A stretch of DNA of 64,000 nucleotides from positions 434,001 to 498,000 of the forward strand of contig CANMPK010000002.1 in the NCBI GenBank assembly GCA_947499725.1. The letters are read 5' to 3'. The notes beneath the pieces were generated by a model, which saw only the letters and a list, made by a program, of their open reading frames with translations, did not search any database and was not told the DNA's origin. The position numbers and the translations under genes were made by a program. Below are positions 27,469 to 37,411 of this stretch, one piece after another (position 1 is the first letter of the stretch; every line of letters starts with the position of its first letter). This DNA is from an uncultured Paracoccaceae bacterium (GTDB taxonomy: Bacteria; Pseudomonadota; Alphaproteobacteria; Rhodobacterales; Rhodobacteraceae).

Positions 27469-28860
27469 ATGAGCACTATGTCCCTGACTTTCGCCAAACC
27501 CTCTGCTGACGCCATTCCTTTGCATGTGGTCTGTGACGACGGATTTGAAAGCTGGAAACAGGGGCAACCTGCGGCTGTGACCGCATGGCTCGACAACACA
27601 GGCTTCAGTCCAGCGATTGGCAAAGTGGCTTTGGTGGCTGGCGCAGATGGCGCAGTGGGTTGCGCCATCGTCGGTTATGGATCTGCCGCCAAACGCAAAC
27701 GTGGGCGTTTCGCCTTGGCAGCCGCGGCAGCAAAACTGCCAGCGCAGGTGTTTGCCTTGGCCAGCACCCCCGAAAGATTTGACACCGACACAGAAACCCT
27801 CGGCTGGCTTTTGGCGGGCTATCACTTTGGCAAATACAACGGCGGCGGCAAAGACGCCGCGCAACTGGTGTGCCCAGATGGCGTGGATGGCGCAGCGATT
27901 GAGGTCATCGCCAATGGCGAGGCCCTGACACGCGATCTTATCAACACCCCCGCCAATGACATGGGGCCAGAGGCTTTGGAAGCCGCTGCGCGTGCATTGG
28001 CGCAAGACCATGGCGCAAGCATTGACGTCACAACAGGCGACGCGCTGCTGACAGAGAATTTCCCGATGATCCACACGGTAGGCCGCGCCTCAGACCAAGC
28101 GCCACGCTTGCTGGATATGCGCTGGGGCGATGTCGGCCCAACCCTGACACTGGTGGGCAAAGGCGTTTGCTTTGACACGGGTGGTTTGAACCTAAAGCCC
28201 GGCGCGTCGATGGGTTTGATGAAAAAGGATATGGGCGGTGCGGCCACGGTGCTGGGCCTTGCGCATATGATCATGGGCTTGGGGCTGAAGCTGCAATTGC
28301 GCGTTCTGATCCCAGCGGTGGAAAATGCGGTCAGCAGCAATGCCTTCCGCCCAGGTGATATCTTGAACTCCCGCAAAGGGCTGACGGTTGAAATCAACAA
28401 CACCGACGCCGAGGGTCGTTTGGTTTTGGCGGATGCTTTGGCTTTGGCGGCAGAGGAAGATCCAGATCAGATCATCTCGATGGCCACGCTCACCGGCGCA
28501 GCCCGCGTGGCCGTGGGGCCAGACCTGTCGCCTTATTATGCCGAGGAAGACAGCGTTGCCGCCGCCTTAGAAAGCGCAGGCGCGAAAGTGGCAGACCCGC
28601 TGTGGCGCATGCCGTTCTGGGATCCTTACGAAGGCATGATCGAACCGGGCATCGCTGATCTAGACAACGCGCCAGCAGGCGGCTTCGCCGGATCGATCAC
28701 CGCCGCGCTGTTCCTGCGCCGCTTTGTCGATACAGGTCGCTACACCCATTTCGATATCTACGGCTGGAACCCATCCGCCAAACCCGCCCGCCCGAAAGGC
28801 GGCGTTGGCATGGGCGCGCGCGCCGTCCTAGAGGCCTTGCCAGAAATGCTTGGCCTATGA
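27469..28860 (+). CDS. Leucyl aminopeptidase family (M17) protein
   Basis: A 463-residue cytosolic metallopeptidase that removes N-terminal amino acids. The M17 signature NTDAEGRLVLADAL lies at about residues 310-323. The metal-binding GKGVCFDTGGLNLKP region lies near residues 230-245, with MKKDMGGAATVLG supplying further ligands. The N-terminal 150 residues are shorter and more divergent than in PepA, which is common for the second M17 paralogue in alphaproteobacteria. Its stop overlaps the start of the NlpC gene (ATGA), indicating an operon for peptide and cell-wall peptide turnover. Confidence 0.93.
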   Translation: MSTMSLTFAKPSADAIPLHVVCDDGFESWKQGQPAAVTAWLDNTGFSPAIGKVALVAGADGAVGCAIVGYGSAAKRKRGRFALAAAAAKLPAQVFALASTPERFDTDTETLGWLLAGYHFGKYNGGGKDAAQLVCPDGVDGAAIEVIANGEALTRDLINTPANDMGPEALEAAARALAQDHGASIDVTTGDALLTENFPMIHTVGRASDQAPRLLDMRWGDVGPTLTLVGKGVCFDTGGLNLKPGASMGLMKKDMGGAATVLGLAHMIMGLGLKLQLRVLIPAVENAVSSNAFRPGDILNSRKGLTVEINNTDAEGRLVLADALALAAEEDPDQIISMATLTGAARVAVGPDLSPYYAEEDSVAAALESAGAKVADPLWRMPFWDPYEGMIEPGIADLDNAPAGGFAGSITAALFLRRFVDTGRYTHFDIYGWNPSAKPARPKGGVGMGARAVLEALPEMLGL

Positions 28861-29693
28861 GAGACCGCCGCCTGAGCCCAGCCAATAAACGCGTGGCAGA
28901 CCCGTCGCTGCGGGATGTCTGGCCCGGTGTGGACTATGTGGACCCAAAACCCTACGCGGTGCATTGGCCGCTGGTGGATTTGATGAACGCCCCCGAAGGG
29001 CATCGCGATCGGCAATTGCTGTTTGGTGAAACCGTTGGCGTGTATGAAATGCACGAAGGCTGGGCCTTTATAAAGGCCGACAAGGATGGCTATGTGGGCT
29101 ATGTGCCGCAAAGCAGCTTGATGCAGATGCCACCGGCCACGCACCAAGTGTTCGCCGCCGCGACCCATGTATATGATCAACCGGATTTCAAATCCCGCGA
29201 TCTGATGCGCCTGTCGCATGGCTGTTTGCTGCATGGTCTGGGCATCGAGAATACGTTTCTGAAAACCAAAGACGGCTATGTGCCCTTGGTGCATTGCCGC
29301 GAGTTGGGCGCGCAGGCGGATGATCCTGTGTCCGTCGCCAAAACCTTTCTGGACACGCCTTATCTTTGGGGCGGCAACAGCCGCTTTGGAATTGATTGCT
29401 CGGGGCTCGTGCAAGCGGCCTTTGTGGCCTGCGGAATCTCCTGCCCGGGCGACAGCGACATGCAGCAAGACCGGCTGGGTTTTCATCTGGCCGAGAGCGA
29501 TACTTTGCAACGCAACGATCTGTTGTTCTGGAAAGGGCACGTGGCGATGGTCGTCGATGAGAAACGCCTGATCCACGCAAACGCCTTCCACATGGCTGTG
29601 ACCTTCGAAAACATCGATGCAGCGATCCAGCGGATTGAAACGCAGGGCGACGGTCCAGTGACCGCGCGCAAACGTGTGTCAGAGCTGCGATAG
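28857..29693 (+). CDS. NlpC/P60-family cell-wall peptidase with SH3-like domains
   Basis: A 278-residue cysteine peptidase. The C-terminal NlpC/P60 domain shows YLWGGNSRFGIDCSGLVQAAF with the catalytic Cys near residue 181, a GHVAMVV histidine strand near residue 226, and a later His in LIHANAFH. The N-terminal 160 residues contain two SH3-like repeats (FGETVGVYEMHEGWAFIKAD-type). No signal peptide is visible, so it may act on recycled muropeptides in the cytosol, consistent with its overlap with the M17 peptidase gene. A gamma-D-glutamyl-diamino-acid specificity is likely by family. Confidence 0.92.
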   Translation: MRDRRLSPANKRVADPSLRDVWPGVDYVDPKPYAVHWPLVDLMNAPEGHRDRQLLFGETVGVYEMHEGWAFIKADKDGYVGYVPQSSLMQMPPATHQVFAAATHVYDQPDFKSRDLMRLSHGCLLHGLGIENTFLKTKDGYVPLVHCRELGAQADDPVSVAKTFLDTPYLWGGNSRFGIDCSGLVQAAFVACGISCPGDSDMQQDRLGFHLAESDTLQRNDLLFWKGHVAMVVDEKRLIHANAFHMAVTFENIDAAIQRIETQGDGPVTARKRVSELR

Positions 29694-29732
29694 GCACCCA
29701 GATACGGGCAATTTTCCCATGGGCGACGGGTT

Positions 29733-29832
29733 GTACATTTCGGCAGGTGAAATGTACCAATTGCCACCTTTAACAAATGGTATGGTATCCGTGCACGGTC
29801 TAAGATATCGCGCAACGGTTTCGCCGCGAAAC
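29733..29832 (+). repeat. 100-bp conserved intergenic element, copy 1
   Basis: This is one of two inverted copies; the other is 36779-36878. About 80 of 100 positions match by hand count, with no gaps. It contains GTACATTTC-N7-GAAATGTAC (29733-29757), ACCAATTG-N10-CAAATGGT (29756-29781, one mismatch) and GTTTCG-CCG-CGAAAC (29818-29832). All three inverted repeats recur in copy 2; the most variable part is 29799-29808. It sits between the NlpC gene and the terminator of asd. Confidence 0.7.
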
Positions 29833-29846
29833 ATTGCTAAGGCCCA

Positions 29847-29875
29847 AAAAGCCCCGCCAATGTGGCAGGGCTTTT
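29847..29875. terminator. Bidirectional terminator between the NlpC region and asd
   Basis: The stem AAAAGCCC...GGGCTTTT with an inner GCCA-ATG-TGGC hairpin has A- and T-runs on both sides. It could end transcription of asd on the minus strand and of anything starting in the 100-bp element on the plus strand. Confidence 0.8.
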
Positions 29876-29897
29876 CTTAATCATTTGAAACCGGCGA

Positions 29898-30920
29898 TTA
29901 GCCTTTTTTCAGAACCTCACGGCCCAGAGTTTCCGCAATCTGTACCGCGTTCAACGCCGCGCCTTTGCGCAGGTTGTCAGACACGCACCACAGGTTCAGA
30001 CCGTTCTCAACAGTCCCGTCCTGACGGATACGGCTGATGAATGTCGCGTAGTCGCCAACACATTCTTTTGGCGTCACGTATCCACCGTCTTCACGCTTGT
30101 CGATCACCATAACACCTGGCGCTTCACGCAGGATGTCACGCGCTTCGTCTTCGTCCAGGAACTCTTCAAATTCGATGTTCACAGATTCAGAGTGGCCCAC
30201 GAAAACAGGTACACGCACACAGGTTGCAGACACTTTGATGGATGGATCGATGATCTTTTTGGTCTCAACAATCATCTTCCACTCTTCTTTGGTGGAGCCA
30301 TCTTCCATGAACACATCAATATGCGGGATCACGTTAAATGCGATCTCTTTTGTGTAAACCTTCGCAGGCACGTCTTGCGTTGGGTTGTAAACCGCTTTGG
30401 TTTGCTCCCACAGCTCTTCCATCGCCTCTTTACCGGAACCGGATACAGACTGGTATGTGGACACAACAACGCGTTTGATCTTTGCGCGATCATGCAAAGG
30501 CTTCAGCGCCACAACCATCTGCGCGGTCGAACAGTTCGGGTTCGCGATGATGTTTTTCTTGGAGTAACCGTGAATATCCTGCGCGTTACACTCTGGAACG
30601 ATCAAAGGAACCTCTGGATCGTAACGGTACAGCGAGGAGTTATCGATCACGACACAGTTCGCTTTCGCCGCGATAGGTGCGTATTTCTTAGTGGCTTCAG
30701 AGCCAACCGCGAACAGCGCCATATCCCAACCGGCAAAGTCGAAGGTGTCCAGATCTTCGGTCGTCAGGGTTTTATCGCCAAACGTCACTTCTGTGCCCAG
30801 CGAACGACGGCTAGCCAGTACTGCGATTTCATCCACTGGGAACTGACGTTCCGCAAGGATATTCAGCATTTCGCGGCCCACGTTACCTGTGGCGCCTACG
30901 ACAACGATGCGATAACCCAT
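29898..30920 (-). CDS. asd: Aspartate-semialdehyde dehydrogenase
   Basis: Asd reduces aspartyl phosphate to aspartate semialdehyde, feeding lysine, diaminopimelate, methionine and threonine synthesis. The 340-residue protein has the NADP-binding motif VVVGATGNVGREML at residues 6-19 and the catalytic cysteine at 130 in IIANPNCST; the loop RVPVFVGHSESVN is also typical. The start at ATG 30920 follows GGAG; the frame is open 16 codons upstream without a better site. It ends at a bidirectional terminator. Confidence 0.97.
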   Translation of the reverse strand: MGYRIVVVGATGNVGREMLNILAERQFPVDEIAVLASRRSLGTEVTFGDKTLTTEDLDTFDFAGWDMALFAVGSEATKKYAPIAAKANCVVIDNSSLYRYDPEVPLIVPECNAQDIHGYSKKNIIANPNCSTAQMVVALKPLHDRAKIKRVVVSTYQSVSGSGKEAMEELWEQTKAVYNPTQDVPAKVYTKEIAFNVIPHIDVFMEDGSTKEEWKMIVETKKIIDPSIKVSATCVRVPVFVGHSESVNIEFEEFLDEDEARDILREAPGVMVIDKREDGGYVTPKECVGDYATFISRIRQDGTVENGLNLWCVSDNLRKGAALNAVQIAETLGREVLKKG

Positions 30921-31032
30921 GTTTATCTCCATTATTTCGGACGGGCTCTCATAGCTGCAAAATCCCAAAGAAAAAAGGGGGATGCAGACTAATTTTTGTG
31001 AAATGGTGCATTTGCAAATCGAATGAGTTGTC

Positions 31033-32049
31033 TCAGCTTGATGCTAGCAACCTGCGATACAACTCAACAAGCGCATCCGCTTCCTGCTCTAACGAGAAAT
31101 TTTGAACAACATGTGCGCGCGCTGCGCTGCGCATTTGGTCCGTTAATTCAGGCGAAGACATCAAGTTTCGCAGCGCGTCAGTAAGGGCATTGGCGTTTTC
31201 TTTGGGAAAAAGGAAACCGGTTTTGCCTTCGACGATTTGATCATTGAACGATCCAACATCGCGGCTGGCAACCGTGGGCACACCGCACGACATGGCCTCT
31301 AGTGGCGTCAATCCAAAGCCCTCAAGTAAAGAAGGAGCGACATAGATGTCTAAAGATTGATAGGCTTTCGGCATCTGCGCGATAGGTTGTTCGGCCTCAA
31401 ATGTGATCCTGCTTTCCAGCCCCGCGGCTTTGATTCTTGCAGCTAAGTCGGCCCCATAGGTGTCGGCATCCTGGATCCGCCCCATGATGACAGCAGAATA
31501 TTCTGGAAACTGCGGAAGAAGATCACACATCGCATCCACAAAGGTGTGCGTGCCCTTCTTTTGTCTGACCCGACCAAAACATCCGATGAGCTTGTGCTCC
31601 GTTGCTCCAAAGATCGCGCTATGGCCTGTTTGAAAGGCGTTCGTATCAACGCCATGCGGGATAATAGCGGTACAAGACGGCATGACAGAGGCGTTGACGG
31701 CATTGGTGGCAACAATGGCATCCATACGCGCAACCAACCAACGGGTCAGTCCCCCGCGTTTTCGGGGCGAAGAACTTGTGAAAACGAGTTTCAACCGAGA
31801 GCGAAACAGATGCTTCAGCAGCAAGCCAACAATCATCTCGTTGTTGCGTCTGGCATGCCAAACCCGCTGACGTCTTGCTAAAAAGGGAATTTTCCACAGG
31901 GGAATTTGCGCCAACCCATCTGGTAGCGCAACGCCAGTGGCGGCAATCGCGATTTGCTTTTCTTGTAGGGGGACAAGGGAAAACACGGTCGCGCTGACGC
32001 CCGATTGGCGGCGATTTAGATTTGGCGCGAAAACATCGGGATCATTCAT
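31033..32049 (-). CDS. Glycosyltransferase family 4 protein
   Basis: A 338-residue GT-B-fold glycosyltransferase. The C-terminal half carries the GT4 nucleotide-sugar site: LIGCFGRVRQKKGTHTF near residue 178 and ApSLLEGFGLTPLEAMSCG-type (PSLLEGFGLTPLEAM) near residue 262, with the E-x7-E motif. No signal or membrane segment is seen. There are no other polysaccharide genes nearby, so it probably acts on a lipid or cell-surface glycan whose other genes lie elsewhere. It is 44 bp downstream of mipZ on the same strand. Confidence 0.9.
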   Translation of the reverse strand: MNDPDVFAPNLNRRQSGVSATVFSLVPLQEKQIAIAATGVALPDGLAQIPLWKIPFLARRQRVWHARRNNEMIVGLLLKHLFRSRLKLVFTSSSPRKRGGLTRWLVARMDAIVATNAVNASVMPSCTAIIPHGVDTNAFQTGHSAIFGATEHKLIGCFGRVRQKKGTHTFVDAMCDLLPQFPEYSAVIMGRIQDADTYGADLAARIKAAGLESRITFEAEQPIAQMPKAYQSLDIYVAPSLLEGFGLTPLEAMSCGVPTVASRDVGSFNDQIVEGKTGFLFPKENANALTDALRNLMSSPELTDQMRSAARAHVVQNFSLEQEADALVELYRRLLASS

Positions 32050-32093
32050 AACCAGGTCGCCCTTTGCTGTTCTAACGCCTTACCGTTGCAGGT

Positions 32094-32903
32094 TTAGAAA
32101 TCGACTGTCACGCCGGGCAGATCGAGCGCTTTGATCAGATCGCGCAATTCCTGACGTGCGGCAACGTTGGAGATGTTCAGCTGCTTCACGCCAATGTCTT
32201 TTAGGTCCAGCAGAGTCAGGCCCCGTGGGAACAATTCGCGGAAGATCACGCGTTCGTTGAAACCCGGTGCTGTGCGGAAGCCGATGCGTTTGGCCAGACG
32301 ATCCAACGCCTTGCCCATCTTTTCCTTGTTCACCATGTTCTGCGCGCCCAAACGGTTACGTACAACAATCCAATCAATTGGCTGCAAGCCGGCCTGTGCA
32401 CGCAACTGGCGCGCGTTCCAGACCATTTCGGAATAGACAGATGGTCCAAGGATTTTCTCTGCATTGCCGTCAATATGCGCCAGCAGGTCGAAATCGACGA
32501 AACTGTCATTCAAGGGTGTTACCAACGTGTCTGCCAAAGAATGCGCCACTTGGCTGAGACGGGTGTGCGAACCCGGGCAGTCAATCAGGATGAAATCGTT
32601 TTTGTCTTCCAGTTCAGCCACCGCAGCAGATAGGCGCAGATCATAGATGTTTTCGCCGTCTTGCAAGGTCGCTGGATCGATCTCTGGAAGCTCATGATAG
32701 GTTGGGCTTGGCAATTCCAAGCCAGCCTTATCGCAGAATGTCTTACGGTTATCGACGTAGCGACCAAAAGTGCGTTGGCGCAAATCGAGGTCTAGCCCAC
32801 CAACGCGGAACCCCATACGCGCCAGAGCTGTTGCAACATGCATGGAAACCGTAGATTTCCCTGCGCCGCCTTTTTCATTCCCAACGACGATAATATGTGC
32901 CAC
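32094..32903 (-). CDS. mipZ: Division-plane positioning ATPase MipZ
   Basis: MipZ is a ParA/MinD-type ATPase of alphaproteobacteria that forms a gradient from the ParB-bound poles and inhibits FtsZ, placing division at midcell. The 269-residue protein opens with VVGNEKGGAGKSTVSMH, the deviant Walker A with Lys11 and Lys16, followed by LDLDLRQRTFGRYVDNR and FILIDCPGSHTRLS (Walker B), all as in the Caulobacter protein. Its C-terminal half, with IDWIVVRNRLG, also fits. It is monocistronic or leads into the glycosyltransferase gene. Confidence 0.94.
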   Translation of the reverse strand: MAHIIVVGNEKGGAGKSTVSMHVATALARMGFRVGGLDLDLRQRTFGRYVDNRKTFCDKAGLELPSPTYHELPEIDPATLQDGENIYDLRLSAAVAELEDKNDFILIDCPGSHTRLSQVAHSLADTLVTPLNDSFVDFDLLAHIDGNAEKILGPSVYSEMVWNARQLRAQAGLQPIDWIVVRNRLGAQNMVNKEKMGKALDRLAKRIGFRTAPGFNERVIFRELFPRGLTLLDLKDIGVKQLNISNVAARQELRDLIKALDLPGVTVDF

Positions 32904-33052
32904 GCGATTGTCCCCACTCGGCCTGATGTTTCGGTCGGTCCTTGGCTGAACCGGACCGCTTAGATCACACTATATGTTGCGTCGCGCAATAGGGGAAGCA
33001 CGGGAACAGCGGGGAATTTTATGTTTTGCAAACTGGTGCATAGTCGCCGCGT

Positions 33053-33607
33053 TTAGGTTTCGGCTGCAATCCATTTGCCATTTGGGATGCCGTCGATTGT
33101 CCAAGGCCCAACACGATACCGGATCAAACGCAAGGTTGGGTGGTTCACAGCGGCTGTCATGCGGCGCACTTGACGGTTACGCCCTTCGCTGATGGTCAGC
33201 TTGATCCAGCTATCTGGCACGTTTTTGCGAAACCGGATTGGAGGGTTGCGCTCCCACAGAAACGGCGGCTCCTCCATGCGCTCCACCTTGGCTGGGCGGG
33301 TCATGCCGTCTTTCAGCTTCACGCCATCTCGCAAGGATTGCAGGGCGTCATCAGACGGGACGCCTTCGACCTGCGCCCAATAGCATTTGGTCATTTTGTT
33401 CTTTGGGTTTGCTATGCGGTTCTGGGTTTTGCCGTCTGCTGTCAGCACCAGCAACCCTTCGCTGTCGCGATCCAAACGGCCAGCCGCATAGACACCCGGT
33501 ACCTCGATAAACTCCGAGAGTGTGCGGCGTGTGCTGCCTTCGGTGCCTTTGTCGGTGAACTGTGAGAGCACATCGAACGGCTTATTAAAGAGGATAACCT
33601 GAACCAT
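33053..33607 (-). CDS. rluE: 23S rRNA pseudouridine synthase, RluE-like
   Basis: A 184-residue pseudouridine synthase of the RsuA/RluB/E/F group. The catalytic motif [13 protein letters not shown] is at residues 43-55 with Asp46 as the nucleophile. The conserved C-terminal [25 protein letters not shown] segment is present. There is no N-terminal S4 domain, which together with the length points to RluE (U2457 of 23S rRNA in E. coli). It is divergent from the metC-like gene with an 84-bp gap. Confidence 0.9.
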
Positions 33608-33691
33608 ATCGGCGCTTTACCTGTTTTGCTGCGGCTTGGCTATTGCAAGCGCCTGAAATTCCCAGTCTACCTTAAGAAAACGGAGTGTGAG

Positions 33692-34828
33692 ATGCGCAAA
33701 ACAGTTCACCCAGCCACATGGGCTGCTCATGCGGGCGGCGCGAAAGATCAACAGTCTTCTGGCGTTGTGCCGCCCATCCAACCGGCGACCACGTTTCTGC
33801 GTGATACGGATTACGCGCTGGAAAATCAAAGCAACATGTATCAGCGCCCTCACAGCGAAACTGTGCGCCATGTGGAAAAGGTGATTGCTCACTTGGAAGG
33901 TGCCGAGGATAGTTTGCTGTTCCCATCCGGCATGGCCGCGGTTTCGGCAAGCCTGCGCTGGGTGCCCAATGGCGGGCGGATCGTTCTGCAGCAAGGGATC
34001 TATTGGGGGACCACAAAGTGGATCCGCGATTTCTGTGCGCGTCGCTCGATTGATTTGATTGAGGTCGATGCGACGGATTTGGCAGCCTTGGCCGAAGGGT
34101 GCGGCGGCAAGGCGGATGCGGTGTTCCTCGAAACGCCTTCGAATCCCTTGCTGAATGTGATCGATATCGCAGGTGCGGCTGAGGTAGCGCATGCGGCGGG
34201 CGCGATTTTGATCGTGGACAATACCGTGGGTACGCCACTCCTGTGCCAGCCTTTGGCGCTGGGCGCGGATGTTGTGATGCATTCCGCGACAAAGGCGATG
34301 AACGGTCATTCCGATGTGTTGGGGGGTGTTCTCTCTGCCCGAGACGGCGTTGCGGCTTGGGAGGCGATCACATTGGACCGTGCAGACGCCGGTGCGGTGA
34401 TGGGTCCGTTTGAAGCATGGCTTTTGCTGCGTGGGCTGCGCACCCTGCCGTTGCGCGTGGAGCGCATGTGCGAGAACGCGATGCGGGTGGCGACGTTTCT
34501 AGAAGATCATCCGGCGGTCGAGGCCGTGTTGTATCCGGGGCTGGCATCGCATCCGGCGCATGATTTGGCGTCGCGCCAAATGCAGGGCGGGTTTGGCGGG
34601 TTGCTGTCTGTTCTTGTGAAAGGTGGCAAGGAAGATGCGCTGCGCGTTGCAGGGCGTTTGGAATTGTTCCTGCGCGCCACTTCATTGGGTGGGGTCGAAA
34701 GCTTGGTTGAGCATCGCTATTCGATTGAATCCCACACCGGATTGCCAGAAAACTTGCTGCGTTTGTCGATTGGCATTGAAAGCGCCGATGATCTGATTGC
34801 GGATCTGGGGCAGGCTTTAGGGCAATAG
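33692..34828 (+). CDS. metC: Cystathionine beta-lyase (PLP-dependent)
   Basis: A 378-residue PLP enzyme of the Cys/Met metabolism family that would cleave cystathionine to homocysteine, pyruvate and ammonia. The cofactor lysine is in HSATKAMNGHSD near residue 200; PPIQPATTFL, LFPSGMAAV and the ILIVDNTVGTPL strand also match. The MetC assignment over other trans-sulfuration enzymes rests on overall similarity. I use ATG 33692, six bases after GGAG; the frame is open 22 codons upstream. A bidirectional terminator follows. Confidence 0.85.
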   Translation: MRKTVHPATWAAHAGGAKDQQSSGVVPPIQPATTFLRDTDYALENQSNMYQRPHSETVRHVEKVIAHLEGAEDSLLFPSGMAAVSASLRWVPNGGRIVLQQGIYWGTTKWIRDFCARRSIDLIEVDATDLAALAEGCGGKADAVFLETPSNPLLNVIDIAGAAEVAHAAGAILIVDNTVGTPLLCQPLALGADVVMHSATKAMNGHSDVLGGVLSARDGVAAWEAITLDRADAGAVMGPFEAWLLLRGLRTLPLRVERMCENAMRVATFLEDHPAVEAVLYPGLASHPAHDLASRQMQGGFGGLLSVLVKGGKEDALRVAGRLELFLRATSLGGVESLVEHRYSIESHTGLPENLLRLSIGIESADDLIADLGQALGQ

Positions 34829-34836
34829 GACAACGC

Positions 34837-34865
34837 AAAACGCAGCCTCGAAAGGGCTGCGTTTT
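34837..34865. terminator. Bidirectional terminator between metC and the SGNH gene
   Basis: A perfect 11-bp stem AAAACGCAGCC/GGCTGCGTTTT with a 7-base loop lies between the convergent genes and supplies T-runs on both strands. Confidence 0.9.
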
Positions 34866-34888
34866 CTAAAATCAGATGTTTGGCGGGA

Positions 34889-35608
34889 TTACCGCGTACG
34901 ATCGACCTTGCGGATATAATTCGCAGCGCGGCTCGCGATTTCTTTGCTGCCTTTCAACGATGGGTGGATCATATCCAGCCCGTGGAACGTTCGATCCCCA
35001 TGTGGCACGAGGTTTGCATTGGACAGGTAGTGCATACCGTGAACAGATTTCGCGAGGTTTGAGATCCGCGCTTCGAGTTCATTGCCTTCGTCTTGGCAAC
35101 TCTCAATTGGGCTGTCCAAGCCAGGGCTGCGCAAATAGCCAACCCAAAGCACCTGAGCGCCGGAGCTGCGTAGCTTGCTGACGAGGCTTGGGATTTTGCC
35201 GGTGGTGCCATCTTTTGAAATCAAAGAGTCCATCTTGCGATCGCATACGTTACAGCCGCAGCCAAACCAAAGATCGTTGCCGCCACCGTTTAGTACCACC
35301 CAGTCCCAAGTGCCATCGCGGTATTGTTGACCGATGTTCATGCCAAGCGCGCCGCTGACAGGTAGGGAGTAGGCCAAACGCGCACCGACGACGGATGTGT
35401 CTTTGATCGGTTCGTTCAATTGGTCGGACAGGTTGTGTGAGATCGCGCGACCAGACAGGCGATGCGCGGCCATCATGGAGTCGCCCATCGTCAAAATGCG
35501 CGGGCTTGAAAGGGTTTCGGTGCCTTGCACATTGCGGGTCGCCGTGTCCTGAACACAGCCGGCCAGAACAAAGGTCGTTACCAAAATTGAAACGGTTGAT
35601 AGTTTCAT
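34889..35608 (-). CDS. SGNH/GDSL-hydrolase-like lipoprotein
   Basis: A 239-residue exported esterase-like protein. A signal peptide ends in the lipobox LAGC (Cys18). The SGNH blocks are visible: MGDSMM with Ser44, a Gly/Asn block (VVLNGGGND near residue 112) and DMIHPS near residues 212-217 with the catalytic Asp-x-x-His. Just after the third block lies an unusual CGCNVC cluster, so a metal or disulfide is possible. The ATG at 35608 follows GGAG; the frame is open upstream. Substrate unknown. Confidence 0.85.
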   Translation of the reverse strand: MKLSTVSILVTTFVLAGCVQDTATRNVQGTETLSSPRILTMGDSMMAAHRLSGRAISHNLSDQLNEPIKDTSVVGARLAYSLPVSGALGMNIGQQYRDGTWDWVVLNGGGNDLWFGCGCNVCDRKMDSLISKDGTTGKIPSLVSKLRSSGAQVLWVGYLRSPGLDSPIESCQDEGNELEARISNLAKSVHGMHYLSNANLVPHGDRTFHGLDMIHPSLKGSKEIASRAANYIRKVDRTR

Positions 35609-35820
35609 ACCAACTCCATCGTTACGAATGAGCGCGTACTTGGCAAAGCGATGGCCCAGCCGCAGGAATAATTTCCGCACGTGTGCTTTTTACACGGGCG
35701 ACATTAAAAATGAGTTTTCTTGCGAGAGGGTATGCTTTGAATTCTGGGCCGGATTAGGGAGCATAGATGGCATTTTTACGAGATTTGCCCAATTTTTTGC
35801 GAAATTGCCTGCGCACAAAG

Positions 35821-35850
35821 AAAAACGCCGCCCTAAAGAGGACGGCGTTT
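35821..35850. terminator. Bidirectional terminator after rpmE
   Basis: The stem AAAACGCCG/CGGCGTTTT with an inner CCT-AAAG-AGG pairing follows the rpmE stop on the minus strand and is flanked by T-runs both ways. Confidence 0.88.
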
Positions 35851-35871
35851 TCGAAATCATAAGAGGTGGGT

Positions 35872-36093
35872 TTAGAAGCCCAGACCTTCGTATTTCTTTT
35901 TGAACTTGGAAACACGACCGCCAGTGTCCATCAGGCGAGAGTTGGAGCCTGTCCATGCTGGGTGCACGGATGGATCGATGTCCAGCGCCATTTGGTCGCC
36001 TTCTTTGCCCCATGTGGAGCGCATCTTGACGATAGTGCCATCTGTCATTTTGACGTCGATGAAGTGATAGTCTGGGTGCGTATCTTTTTTCAT
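35872..36093 (-). CDS. rpmE: 50S ribosomal protein L31
   Basis: A 73-residue ribosomal protein: [20 protein letters not shown] followed by the [15 protein letters not shown] region matches L31. There are no zinc-binding CxxC cysteines, so it is the non-zinc form. It lies 11 bp downstream of rplS and ends at a terminator, so the two are cotranscribed. Confidence 0.95.
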
Positions 36094-36104
36094 GAGATCG
36101 CTCC

Positions 36105-36476
36105 TTACGCTTTAGGCTTATAGTTTGTGACTTCTGCGATACGTGCGGATTTACCACGACGTGTGCGCAGGTAGTACAGCTTGGAGCGACGTACGCGACC
36201 GCGACGAACCACTGTGATGCTGTCGATGTTTGTGGAGTGCAGCGGGAATACGCGCTCTACACCTTCACCGAAGGAAATTTTACGAACTGTGAAAGAACCA
36301 GCAATGCCTTGGCCGTTTTTACGGGCAATGCAAACGCCTTCGTAGTTCTGTACACGAGAGCGGGAGCCCTCGGTCACTTTGTAACCAACGCGGATTGTGT
36401 CACCCGCTTTGAAATCTGGGATGTCGTGGCCCAGGGAGGCGATTTGTTCCGCCTCGAGTTGTGCGATCAGATCCAT
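36105..36476 (-). CDS. rplS: 50S ribosomal protein L19
   Basis: A 123-residue L19, which sits at the interface of the ribosomal subunits. Family motifs include [33 protein letters not shown] and the C-terminal [23 protein letters not shown]. In most relatives trmD lies directly upstream; here about 2.5 kb of other genes intervene, and rplS has its own promoter at 36724-36752 and a long leader. Confidence 0.97.
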
Positions 36477-36723
36477 TGATCTTCATCCTTGTATGCTCGT
36501 GGTTAATCCACGAAGATTTGCGCGTCCTCAGAACTCTTGGTCTTCGATCGGGTCCGCTTGGCCTTATTAAATAAGGGGCGCCCGCCAGAGGGTCAGGTCG
36601 TCATTGCTTAGTCTGCTATGCGTTTTCCAAAGTCTTGAGCGACAGGGGCGGAAGAGTGCCCGATAAACCCAAAATGCGAATACGCAAAGCGCCCGAGTCG
36701 GAATCACCGATCAGGATGCGCGG
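36477..36723 (-). other. Long 5' leader of rplS
   Basis: About 240 nt separate the predicted start of transcription (near 36717) from the rplS ATG. The leader contains the palindrome CCTTATTAAATAAGG near 36563-36577 and several GC-rich inverted segments. Long leaders on ribosomal protein mRNAs often mediate feedback by the protein product, but I see no known leader motif. Confidence 0.4.
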
Positions 36724-36752
36724 TATCTAGGGCAAAACAGAAGATATGGCAA
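36724..36752 (-). promoter_or_regulatory. Promoter of rplS-rpmE
   Basis: On the minus strand TTGCCA (36752-36747), 17 bp, then TAGATA (36729-36724) form a good sigma-70-type promoter. It lies 27 bp downstream of the conserved 100-bp element copy 2. Confidence 0.55.
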
Positions 36753-36778
36753 GCGGCAGCGCAATCGTTGTGCAAGGC

Positions 36779-36878
36779 GTTTCGCGGCGAAACCGTTGCG
36801 CGTGCGGCGATCCCGTGGACGGAGACTTTACCATTTGTTCAATGTGGCAATTGGTACATTTGAATCGCTGAAATGTAC
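36779..36878 (-). repeat. 100-bp conserved intergenic element, copy 2 (inverted)
   Basis: This is the reverse-complement copy of 29733-29832. It retains GTACATTT-N9-AAATGTAC (36854-36878), ACCATTTG-N10-CAATTGGT (36830-36855) and GTTTCG-CGG-CGAAAC (36779-36793). The 24 bases at its 3' end are identical to copy 1. It lies between the rplS promoter and the divergent MerR-controlled module. Confidence 0.7.
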
Positions 36879-36937
36879 ACTTGGGAATTTTTCCAATGAG
36901 GCACGCCAGCAGGAGGCAAGAAACTGCGTTTGCGCGC

Positions 36938-36997: not shown

Positions 36998-37411
36998 ATG
37001 AGCAGCAAGATTGAAACCTTTTTCGCCAGCCTGTCTGATCTGGAGGTGGCGAAAACCCTGATCACAGAAGATTGCCAGTTTTTTCCGGTGCGAGACGGAC
37101 ATTATTCCGAGGTGCCAATTTATGGCGCGCGTCGTGGGCGGGATGGCCTTGAAGACTTTGTGCAGAGCTTGCGCAATGCTTTTGACACGCAAAGCTTCCA
37201 TGTGGATCATGTGTTGGAAACAGAAACCGAAGGCGCGGGGTTCGGGCGGTTTGAGCATCGTGTCAAAACGACGGGTAAGATGTTTCGCAGCCACTGGGCG
37301 TTGCAGTGCGCTTTTGAAGACGGGAAGATGTCTGTTTATCGGTTTTACGAGGACTCTGCCGCTTTGGAAGAAAGTCTGGGTGTGCAAACCCGCTGTATAG
37401 AGGCTGTATAG
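36998..37411 (+). CDS. SnoaL-like (NTF2 superfamily) protein
   Basis: A 137-residue cytosolic protein with an NTF2-like fold: an N-terminal helix LSDLEVAKTLITEDCQFFPV, then GRDGLEDFVQSLRNAF, and a last strand pair around WALQCAFEDGKMSVYRFYED. This is typical of SnoaL-like or ketosteroid-isomerase-related proteins, whose functions vary widely. It lies directly behind a MerR-type promoter and 21 bp before merR, so it is the likely effector gene of that regulator. Confidence 0.85.
   Translation: MSSKIETFFASLSDLEVAKTLITEDCQFFPVRDGHYSEVPIYGARRGRDGLEDFVQSLRNAFDTQSFHVDHVLETETEGAGFGRFEHRVKTTGKMFRSHWALQCAFEDGKMSVYRFYEDSAALEESLGVQTRCIEAV

Follow-up and report, generated by a model that had tools for sequence, protein, structure and literature searches.

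Paired intergenic elements with a parS-like palindrome belong to a chromosome-wide family of candidate protein docking sites

The window analysed here, the whole 64,000-nucleotide stretch C2:434001-498000 of genome G000 (an uncultured Paracoccaceae bacterium, 3.15 Mb in 14 contigs, called below the own genome), carries two inverted copies, A and B, of an intergenic element whose wider family is the subject of this work. A preliminary description of this DNA had reported them as a 100-bp inverted repeat pair, and the pair has been borne out: 29733-29832 (+) and 36779-36878 (-) align without gaps with 80/100 matches, and a within-window blastn of copy A against copy B gives E = 7e-22. The inverted repeats and the identical 24-base end claimed for the pair are present in both copies. 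The conserved core begins 4 bp farther out than these coordinates, at 29729 in copy A and at 36882 in copy B. It is made of three boxes and is followed by a weakly conserved tail and, in these two copies, by a parS-like palindrome. The parts of the copies, and the genes around them, are as follows.

29729..29741, + strand: copy A, box 1 (core columns 1-13), from the alignments of 29 copies and of 78 copies from three species
29742..29748, + strand: copy A, spacer with a constant length of 7 nt and a freely varying centre (columns 16-19 near composition-expected identity)
29749..29762, + strand: copy A, box 2 in reverse orientation (columns 21-34), from the same two alignments
29759..29772, + strand: copy A, box 3 in forward orientation (columns 31-44), with AATT common to box 2, from the same two alignments
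29773..29794, + strand: copy A, weakly conserved tail (columns 45-66; consensus AAAnnTTAA ... CGnnCG), from the column composition of 133 copies
29818..29832, + strand: copy A, parS-like palindrome GTTTCGCCGCGAAAC, from palindrome occurrence searches
36870..36882, - strand: copy B, box 1, from the two alignments
36863..36869, - strand: copy B, 7-nt spacer, from spacer column identity
36849..36862, - strand: copy B, box 2, from the two alignments
36839..36852, - strand: copy B, box 3, from the two alignments
36817..36838, - strand: copy B, tail, from the column composition of 133 copies
36779..36793, - strand: copy B, parS-like palindrome, from palindrome occurrence searches
28857-29693, + strand: peptidase-like gene (by eye), neighbour of copy A, from the list of open reading frames (ORFs)
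29898..30968, - strand: asd, aspartate-semialdehyde dehydrogenase (named by eye from sequence), neighbour of copy A and also beside a copy in genome G002
36105..36476, - strand: rplS (name from the preliminary description, consistent by eye), neighbour of copy B and also beside a copy in G002
36998-37411, + strand: gene divergent from rplS, flanking copy B, from the ORF list

Neither copy overlaps any of the likely genes in the ORF list, as had been described, and long chance ORFs on other frames cross the copies. A terminator-like hairpin does stand between copy A and the 3' end of asd. Copy B had been placed just upstream of the rplS promoter, which is only loosely right: some 300 bp separate it from the start of rplS, on the upstream side. 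The pair is conserved in G002, next to asd and rplS, in the same orientation and about 9 kb apart on contig C2 of that genome; there the palindrome at asd has one mismatch and the other is exact.

Both copies are long-form members (with the palindrome) of a large family. When 131 bases around copy A were searched against the own genome, 41 matches had E <= 10, most of them spanning only approximately the first 40 bases of the element, and 29 own copies could be aligned without gaps across 57 columns. The model built from these 29 copies (R1) gave 85 matches at E <= 1 in the own genome, of which 58 are non-overlapping sites (E <= 4.2e-5), 26 read these palindromic sites on the opposite strand and one is an additional weak site; the many further copies that the preliminary description had proposed to look for are thus there. 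The core consists of three related 13-14-bp boxes: AATTGTACATTTC, 7 nt, the inverted box GAAA..G..C.AATT and then AATTG.CAC.TTTC, which overlaps the second box at AATT. The boxes are species-specific, copies of genome G005 typically having AATCGTACGTTTC in place of the own AATTGTACATTTC.

The family is narrowly distributed. Over 40 genomes, the own included, R1 at E <= 0.01 found it in the own genome, G005 and G002, with one weak match each in G011 and G020. A second model made from the three dialects (R2) was used on nine genomes of the genus and on 294 genomes of other genera of the family (one per genus). It found the element in three of the nine (60, 112 and 94 matches, both strands counted), with at least 53 distinct sites in G005 and at least 51 in G002 by hand count among the matches listed; under stricter filters (E <= 1e-4) there was no carrier among the 294. 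A degenerate pattern compared with 84,980 named genomes, a set that may omit the own genome or a very near one, gave 35 stretches, all of them in Cognatishimia sp. 1_MG-2023 strain B3R09. Because 8 of 9 G005 loci are 100% identical to stretches of the B3R09 record, we have taken G005 as this strain and the genus as Cognatishimia. In a four-protein tree the non-carriers G001, G003, G006, G007 and G008 lie behind a 99% branch, and the non-carrier G004 falls next to the carriers at a support of 50, which does not resolve its place. One degenerate pattern found no contigs in IMG/VR, and one own and one G005 copy used as queries found no match in PLSDB.

We have compared 133 fetched copies (own 56, G005 49, G002 28). 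These sets are incomplete: they lack own copies C1:940570 and C2:570924 and five G005 copies from the list, and one of the 29 G002 loci fetched (L211) gave no copy under the selection rule. Counterparts that adjoin an orthologous gene, with side and strand in agreement, were found for 34/56 own, 34/49 G005 and 24/28 G002 copies. Between the own genome and G005, 28 own copies with an orthologous neighbour gene (>= 50% identity) gave 29 pairs, which are not always one site (L055 and L138 pair with two counterparts each), and side and orientation agree in all of them except that of L008. At orthologous sites, box 3 keeps a similar distance from the stop codon (Spearman rho 0.93, n = 20). The exceptional own copy L008 and L209 of G002 stand in the same convergent gene pair, apparently in opposite orientation; the box 1-box 2 unit is nearly symmetric.

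The identity of the 44-column core at orthologous sites across species (0.694, 0.653 and 0.721 in 27, 21 and 19 pairs) is approximately that of all cross-genome pairs (0.680, 0.645 and 0.733), and among copies within one genome it reaches 0.758, 0.814 and 0.884 in the three carriers. Copy L017, with a damaged box 1, was left out of these statistics, and its pair and that of L008 (opposite orientation) reduce the own-G005 set to 27 of 29. The 30 nt of left flank have an identity of 0.275. Compared with permuted pairs, own-G005 orthologues show no excess at box 1 (P 0.48) or box 2 (P 0.64). The centre of the spacer (columns 16-19) has within-genome identities of 0.366, 0.473 and 0.481 vs 0.345, 0.411 and 0.432 expected from composition, with values of 0.73-0.97 in the adjoining boxes. 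Towards its edges the spacer is partly conserved (0.49-0.60 over columns 14-20 as a whole), and 41/55, 39/49 and 20/28 of the 7-nt spacers are distinct in the three carriers. Since transposition or gene conversion would have carried the spacer along, the core does not appear to have been spread by copying. Copies at orthologous sites resemble one another in boxes 1 and 2 no more closely than copies at unrelated sites do, and the middle of the spacer is close to random, from which it follows that the boxes have changed base by base, in the manner expected of sites that a co-evolving protein reads; the same near-random spacer, together with the retention of sites, indicates that most of the compared copies are old and not recently copied. 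Selection by a reader protein contacting the boxes would be the best fit to this pattern of boxes and spacer, and an RNA stem would fit it less.

The places of the copies are also characteristic. With a crude gene finder, 0/56 fetched own copies lie inside genes and 2/49 G005 copies overlap short weak ORFs. A gene 3' end stands on the box 3 side in 40/56 own copies (in eight of these the end of the model overlaps the gene end by 3-16 bases); 19/56 lie between convergent genes and 8/56, copy B among them, between divergent genes. By eye, the element follows the stop codon of both nusB and mltG in the own genome and G005 and that of mltG only in G002, and in the six non-carriers these two genes have no element (the G007 nusB locus being cut at a contig end, with a shifted offset). 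Sites occur in non-coding DNA roughly every 50 kb, and the gaps between them are more even than expected. Their coefficient of variation is 0.66 in the own genome (52 gaps, P 0.0004), 0.67 in G005 (49 gaps, P 0.0022; 0.71 for a shorter first list of 43 gaps, P 0.018) and 0.63 in G002 (41 gaps among the matches listed, P 0.0008), against 0.94-0.96 under simulated uniform placement (0.93 for the shorter G005 list), a null that ignores the restriction to non-coding DNA; the three genomes share sites and hence are not independent tests. Within a single contig, the widest copy-free interval separating two own copies is C3 18.6-189 kb.

The identical 24-base end of copies A and B contains a 15-base palindrome with a central S, which was invisible to the preliminary description. 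Its pattern GTTTCGCSGCGAAAC is present 10 times in the own genome, where the reversed control is absent. Over 60 genomes it was found in the own genome (10), G005 (14), G002 (9), G004 (2), G006 (1), G008 (1), G013 (3) and G037 (1) and nowhere else, the reversed control appearing once each in four genomes. The own genome, G002, G004 and G005 each have three palindromes, exact or with a single mismatch at the centre, around a parA-parB operon beside a replication initiator; the own locus, on contig C5, encodes a ParA-like ATPase, a ParB_N-domain protein and a Rep3 initiator. The ParB of this Rep3-type replicon is encoded at L240:5412-6374 and has an orthologue in strain B3R09. The parAB loci of G006 and G008 have one exact palindrome each, and in the non-carriers G004, G006 and G008 the palindrome is found solely there. 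G013 has three in a homologous locus, two of them inside genes. The 33 exact palindromes of the three carriers are distributed as 26 in elements (7, 11 and 8), six at parAB loci (2, 3 and 1) and one inside a predicted gene, seven of those in G005 and G002 being assigned by matching coordinates, without fetching. Of the 26 in elements, 23 lie on contigs other than the one bearing parAB. As the same palindrome is repeated at parAB, it looks like the parS-like centromere of the ParA-ParB system of a resident replicon, the parAB contig being probably a separate replicon.

The palindrome stands at 71-89 bp from box 1. With up to two mismatches it is present within -150 to +200 of 10/56 own, 8/49 G005 and 8/28 G002 copies, compared with 3/1692 control windows (3 of these 26 are outside the 71-89 range), and with up to one mismatch 9/56, 8/49 and 6/28 of the fetched copies are long. 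Long status is shared at orthologous sites between the own genome and G002 (3 long-long pairs, copies A and B being two of them, 0 mixed and 18 short-short, P 0.00075), with 1, 0 and 18 such pairs between G005 and G002 (P 0.053). Outside the pair table, own L013 and G005 L250 are both long and in the same orientation, beside the same tandem tRNA-Asp genes followed by tRNA-Val. A terminator-like stretch, gggggcaaagccccac, is shared close to box 1 upstream of the G005 long copies L171, L176 and L180 and may be a further module. No site of the repABC-type parS consensus GTTNNNNGCNNNNAAC lies within 3 mismatches near any of the 133 copies. The 2.6-kb clusters in G000, G004 and G005 were considered as an autonomous parent element with inverted palindromes, a reading rejected once they proved to be the parAB loci. 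A palindrome that does fit the repABC consensus, GTTGACAGCTGTCAAC, is found at positions 1508 and 4110 of C7, the own repABC-type plasmid contig. The replication region of C7 is common to G005:C2 and G002:C9, and C7 and these two contigs each bear a core copy.

Taken together, we consider it most probable (at roughly 0.6) that the core is a chromosome-wide site of a co-evolving DNA-binding protein, that the long form adds the parS-like palindrome of the replicon, and that the role is that of a scaffold. A sequence-specific DNA-binding protein would read the core, probably as dimers on the inverted boxes; the genome keeps a site roughly every 50 kb outside coding DNA, and site and protein would co-evolve, giving each species its own dialect. 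Approximately one site in six carries in addition the parS-like palindrome of the apparent extrachromosomal replicon, 71-89 bp from box 1. Because they carry the palindrome of its ParA-ParB system, these long chromosomal sites are predicted to bind also the ParB of that replicon. The role would most likely be that of a scaffold, spatial or for segregation, organising the chromosome and linking the replicon to it. Of the three options in the preliminary description (mobile non-coding element, small-RNA gene family and shared regulatory module), the last comes nearest, with copies kept at orthologous places and boxes evolving in concert.

Several observations weigh against this reading. A scan of ParB domains in the nine genus genomes, which missed at least one known ParB, that of own contig C5, and covered no other protein classes, found no orthologue group confined to all carriers, and a ParB-family reader of that kind was thus rejected within this incomplete scan; one group is confined to G005 and G002, another comprises the three carriers plus G007, and three listed matches without loci were left out of the comparison. 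Own-G005 orthologues keep some memory of site descent at box 3 (0.698 vs 0.662 in permuted pairs, P 0.0095) and in the tail (0.481 vs 0.385, 0/2000 permutations), part of which overlaps gene ends, where coding conservation may contribute. In tandem contexts the box 3 side is turned toward a gene 3' end above chance (own 21 to 8, P 0.024; G005 12 to 4, P 0.077), a bias that a pure DNA scaffold would not require. Long status agrees less well between the own genome and G005 (1 long-long, 2 mixed, 24 short-short, P 0.15). Finally, four G005 long copies (L160, L164, L171, L176) are near-identical along the element, and long G005 copies have fewer site counterparts (3/8 vs 31/41 of the short ones, P 0.047; in the own genome 5/9 vs 29/47, P 0.73), which together make some mobility likely. 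As to other bearers of the reader, the shared repABC plasmid was considered, and when own C7 was compared by eye with parts of the two other plasmid contigs, no clear candidate emerged. A pair of adjacent ParB-like genes with 31% mutual identity lies at G000:C3:68037-69154 (L273, L278), within the widest copy-free interval, and has no close relative among the genus ParB-domain proteins compared.

These signs of mobility are what a non-autonomous mobile repeat of the REP, RIME or MITE type would leave, its enzyme unseen or lost and its copies homogenised by ongoing transposition or gene conversion. To them can be added the dozens of copies in non-coding DNA, the restriction to three related genomes, the even spacing, which could reflect target immunity, and L249 and L250 (G005:C1:48686 and C1:90689), which lie at different places and by eye are the same throughout some 95 bp; since L250 adjoins the tandem tRNA-Asp genes, like own L013, L249 may have arisen recently by duplication of an old copy. 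We nevertheless regard a mobile repeat as unlikely, since the nearly identical boxes enclose a spacer centre that is close to random, and many copies stand at orthologous places. The mobile element of the preliminary description is retained in this sense only for the few near-identical long copies of one relative. Nor did the nine genus genomes give a Y1 transposase (PF01797) over the cut-off, other transposase families not having been searched; sub-threshold matches number one in G005 and three in G006, with none at E <= 0.1 in the own genome. A terminal tag of the published REP kinds is lacking too: the unpaired GTAG/CGTC tag is absent from the core consensus (GTAG judged from the consensus alone), and CGTC occurs within 45 nt after the core in 13/56, 13/49 and 4/28 copies (own, G005, G002) and at columns 61-64, the CGnn of the tail, in 4/56, 5/49 and 0/28, being one word among many. 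With neither tag nor transposase over the cut-off, membership of REP/RAYT was rejected. By eye there is no long inverted repeat between the element ends and no obvious target duplication at L249 and L250, as might mark a MITE.

The position after genes could also be that of a structured RNA element of 3' untranslated regions (a stability element, a small-RNA target or a terminator) acting on transcripts. It would account for the gene 3' ends on the box 3 side and for nusB and mltG, where a clear intrinsic terminator follows the element, by eye, in 3/5 cases (own mltG and both G005 genes), and over three species the box 1-box 2 stem pairs in 90.3% of cells vs 88.3% in shuffles (0/500 as high), with one stem pair having four both-sided cells among 77 distinct rows, figures that relatedness can produce without structure. 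Within the 29 own copies, however, no both-sided change was seen, pairing is not above shuffles and 41/58 cells are unpaired at two of the nine stem pairs. RNAalifold gave no consensus structure, there is no Rfam match at gathering level at copy A or B, and copies between divergent genes fit poorly. Such an element thus seems very improbable, and the small-RNA gene family once proposed finds no support, because the compensatory stem changes suggested as its check are missing among the own copies. The sole gathering-level Rfam match of the window is the ffh sRNA (RF01793, 46177-46228 on the - strand, 64.8 bits). We give as little credit to the copies being operators of an ordinary transcription factor that controls a large regulon, in which case the palindrome would be there by chance or as an auxiliary module. 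Some copies are upstream of genes (rplS), and operators are known to change dialect in step with their regulator; yet most own copies have a gene 3' end on the box 3 side, the neighbours look by eye like unrelated housekeeping genes, the spacing is even, and the palindrome stands at a narrow distance range and is largely conserved at its sites. Two further identities were considered. DNA uptake sequences, which would be expected in excess throughout the genome and beyond the composite, were rejected: all three occurrences of GTACATTTC in the 64-kb window are in copies A and B, and in the fetched loci (chosen around copies) 58/59 of GTACATTTC (own) and 81/81 of GTACGTTTC (G005) are in or near copies. 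The geometry of a recombinase site (13-bp arms and a 7-bp spacer) was set aside as spacers differ between copies; recombinase families were not searched.

Returning to the docking of a co-evolving protein on the core, the data suggest an undescribed system of chromosome-wide protein docking sites. More tentatively, it is conceivable that these evenly spaced sites, under a rapidly co-evolving reader and with a conserved subset fused within a narrow distance range to a plasmid-type parS, allow the replicon's ParB to load also on the main chromosome, a physical link between chromosome and replicon that would be new. Among the matches listed in a search of literature titles, we recognised none for this family or for dispersed chromosomal copies of a plasmid parS, which is no proof of absence. 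Repeats are usually alike through copying; here many are old, fixed in place and changed together across dozens of sites. Such concerted change, base by base, would be a natural record of a DNA-binding protein shifting its specificity, and centromere-like copies on the chromosome bear on the coordinated segregation of chromosome and plasmids in multi-replicon bacteria.

Among known systems, the parS sites of repABC replicons are described upstream of parA and at the parA-parB junction (PMC9040568). Two of the palindrome places at the parAB loci match these, the third being after parB. The differences from repABC parS (PMC9040568, PMC5613091) are that the sequence here is the 15-base GTTTCGCSGCGAAAC instead of GTTNNNNGCNNNNAAC and that 26 further exact palindromes are found in dispersed elements. 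REP sequences and their composites (BIME) are described as short palindromic intergenic repeats, many of them downstream of genes, whose sequence types vary from species to species and evolve together with a protein (PMC2817692, PMC3733652). The likeness with this REP/BIME and RAYT system, so described, lies in intergenic palindromic sites, many 3' of genes, and in species-specific sequence types; the differences are the lack here of the GTAG/CGTC tag and of a Y1 transposase over the cut-off in the genus, the approximately 60 evenly spaced copies, the presence of a parS-like module and the want of homogenisation in the internal spacer. The Rhizobium intergenic mosaic elements (RIME) are about 108 bp long with two palindromes and, compared by description, resemble the present family as intergenic mosaics of about 100 bp with two palindromic parts in alphaproteobacteria. 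We know of no transposase for them, nor, to our knowledge, have site conservation with dialects or an identity with parS been described. Noc (a ParB relative), SlmA and MatP each read tens of dispersed chromosomal sites, which are short palindromes, and these systems are widespread. The family shares with them the tens of sites across the chromosome, with a putative reader protein, and differs in having three boxes plus a plasmid-type palindrome and in being present in three species only.

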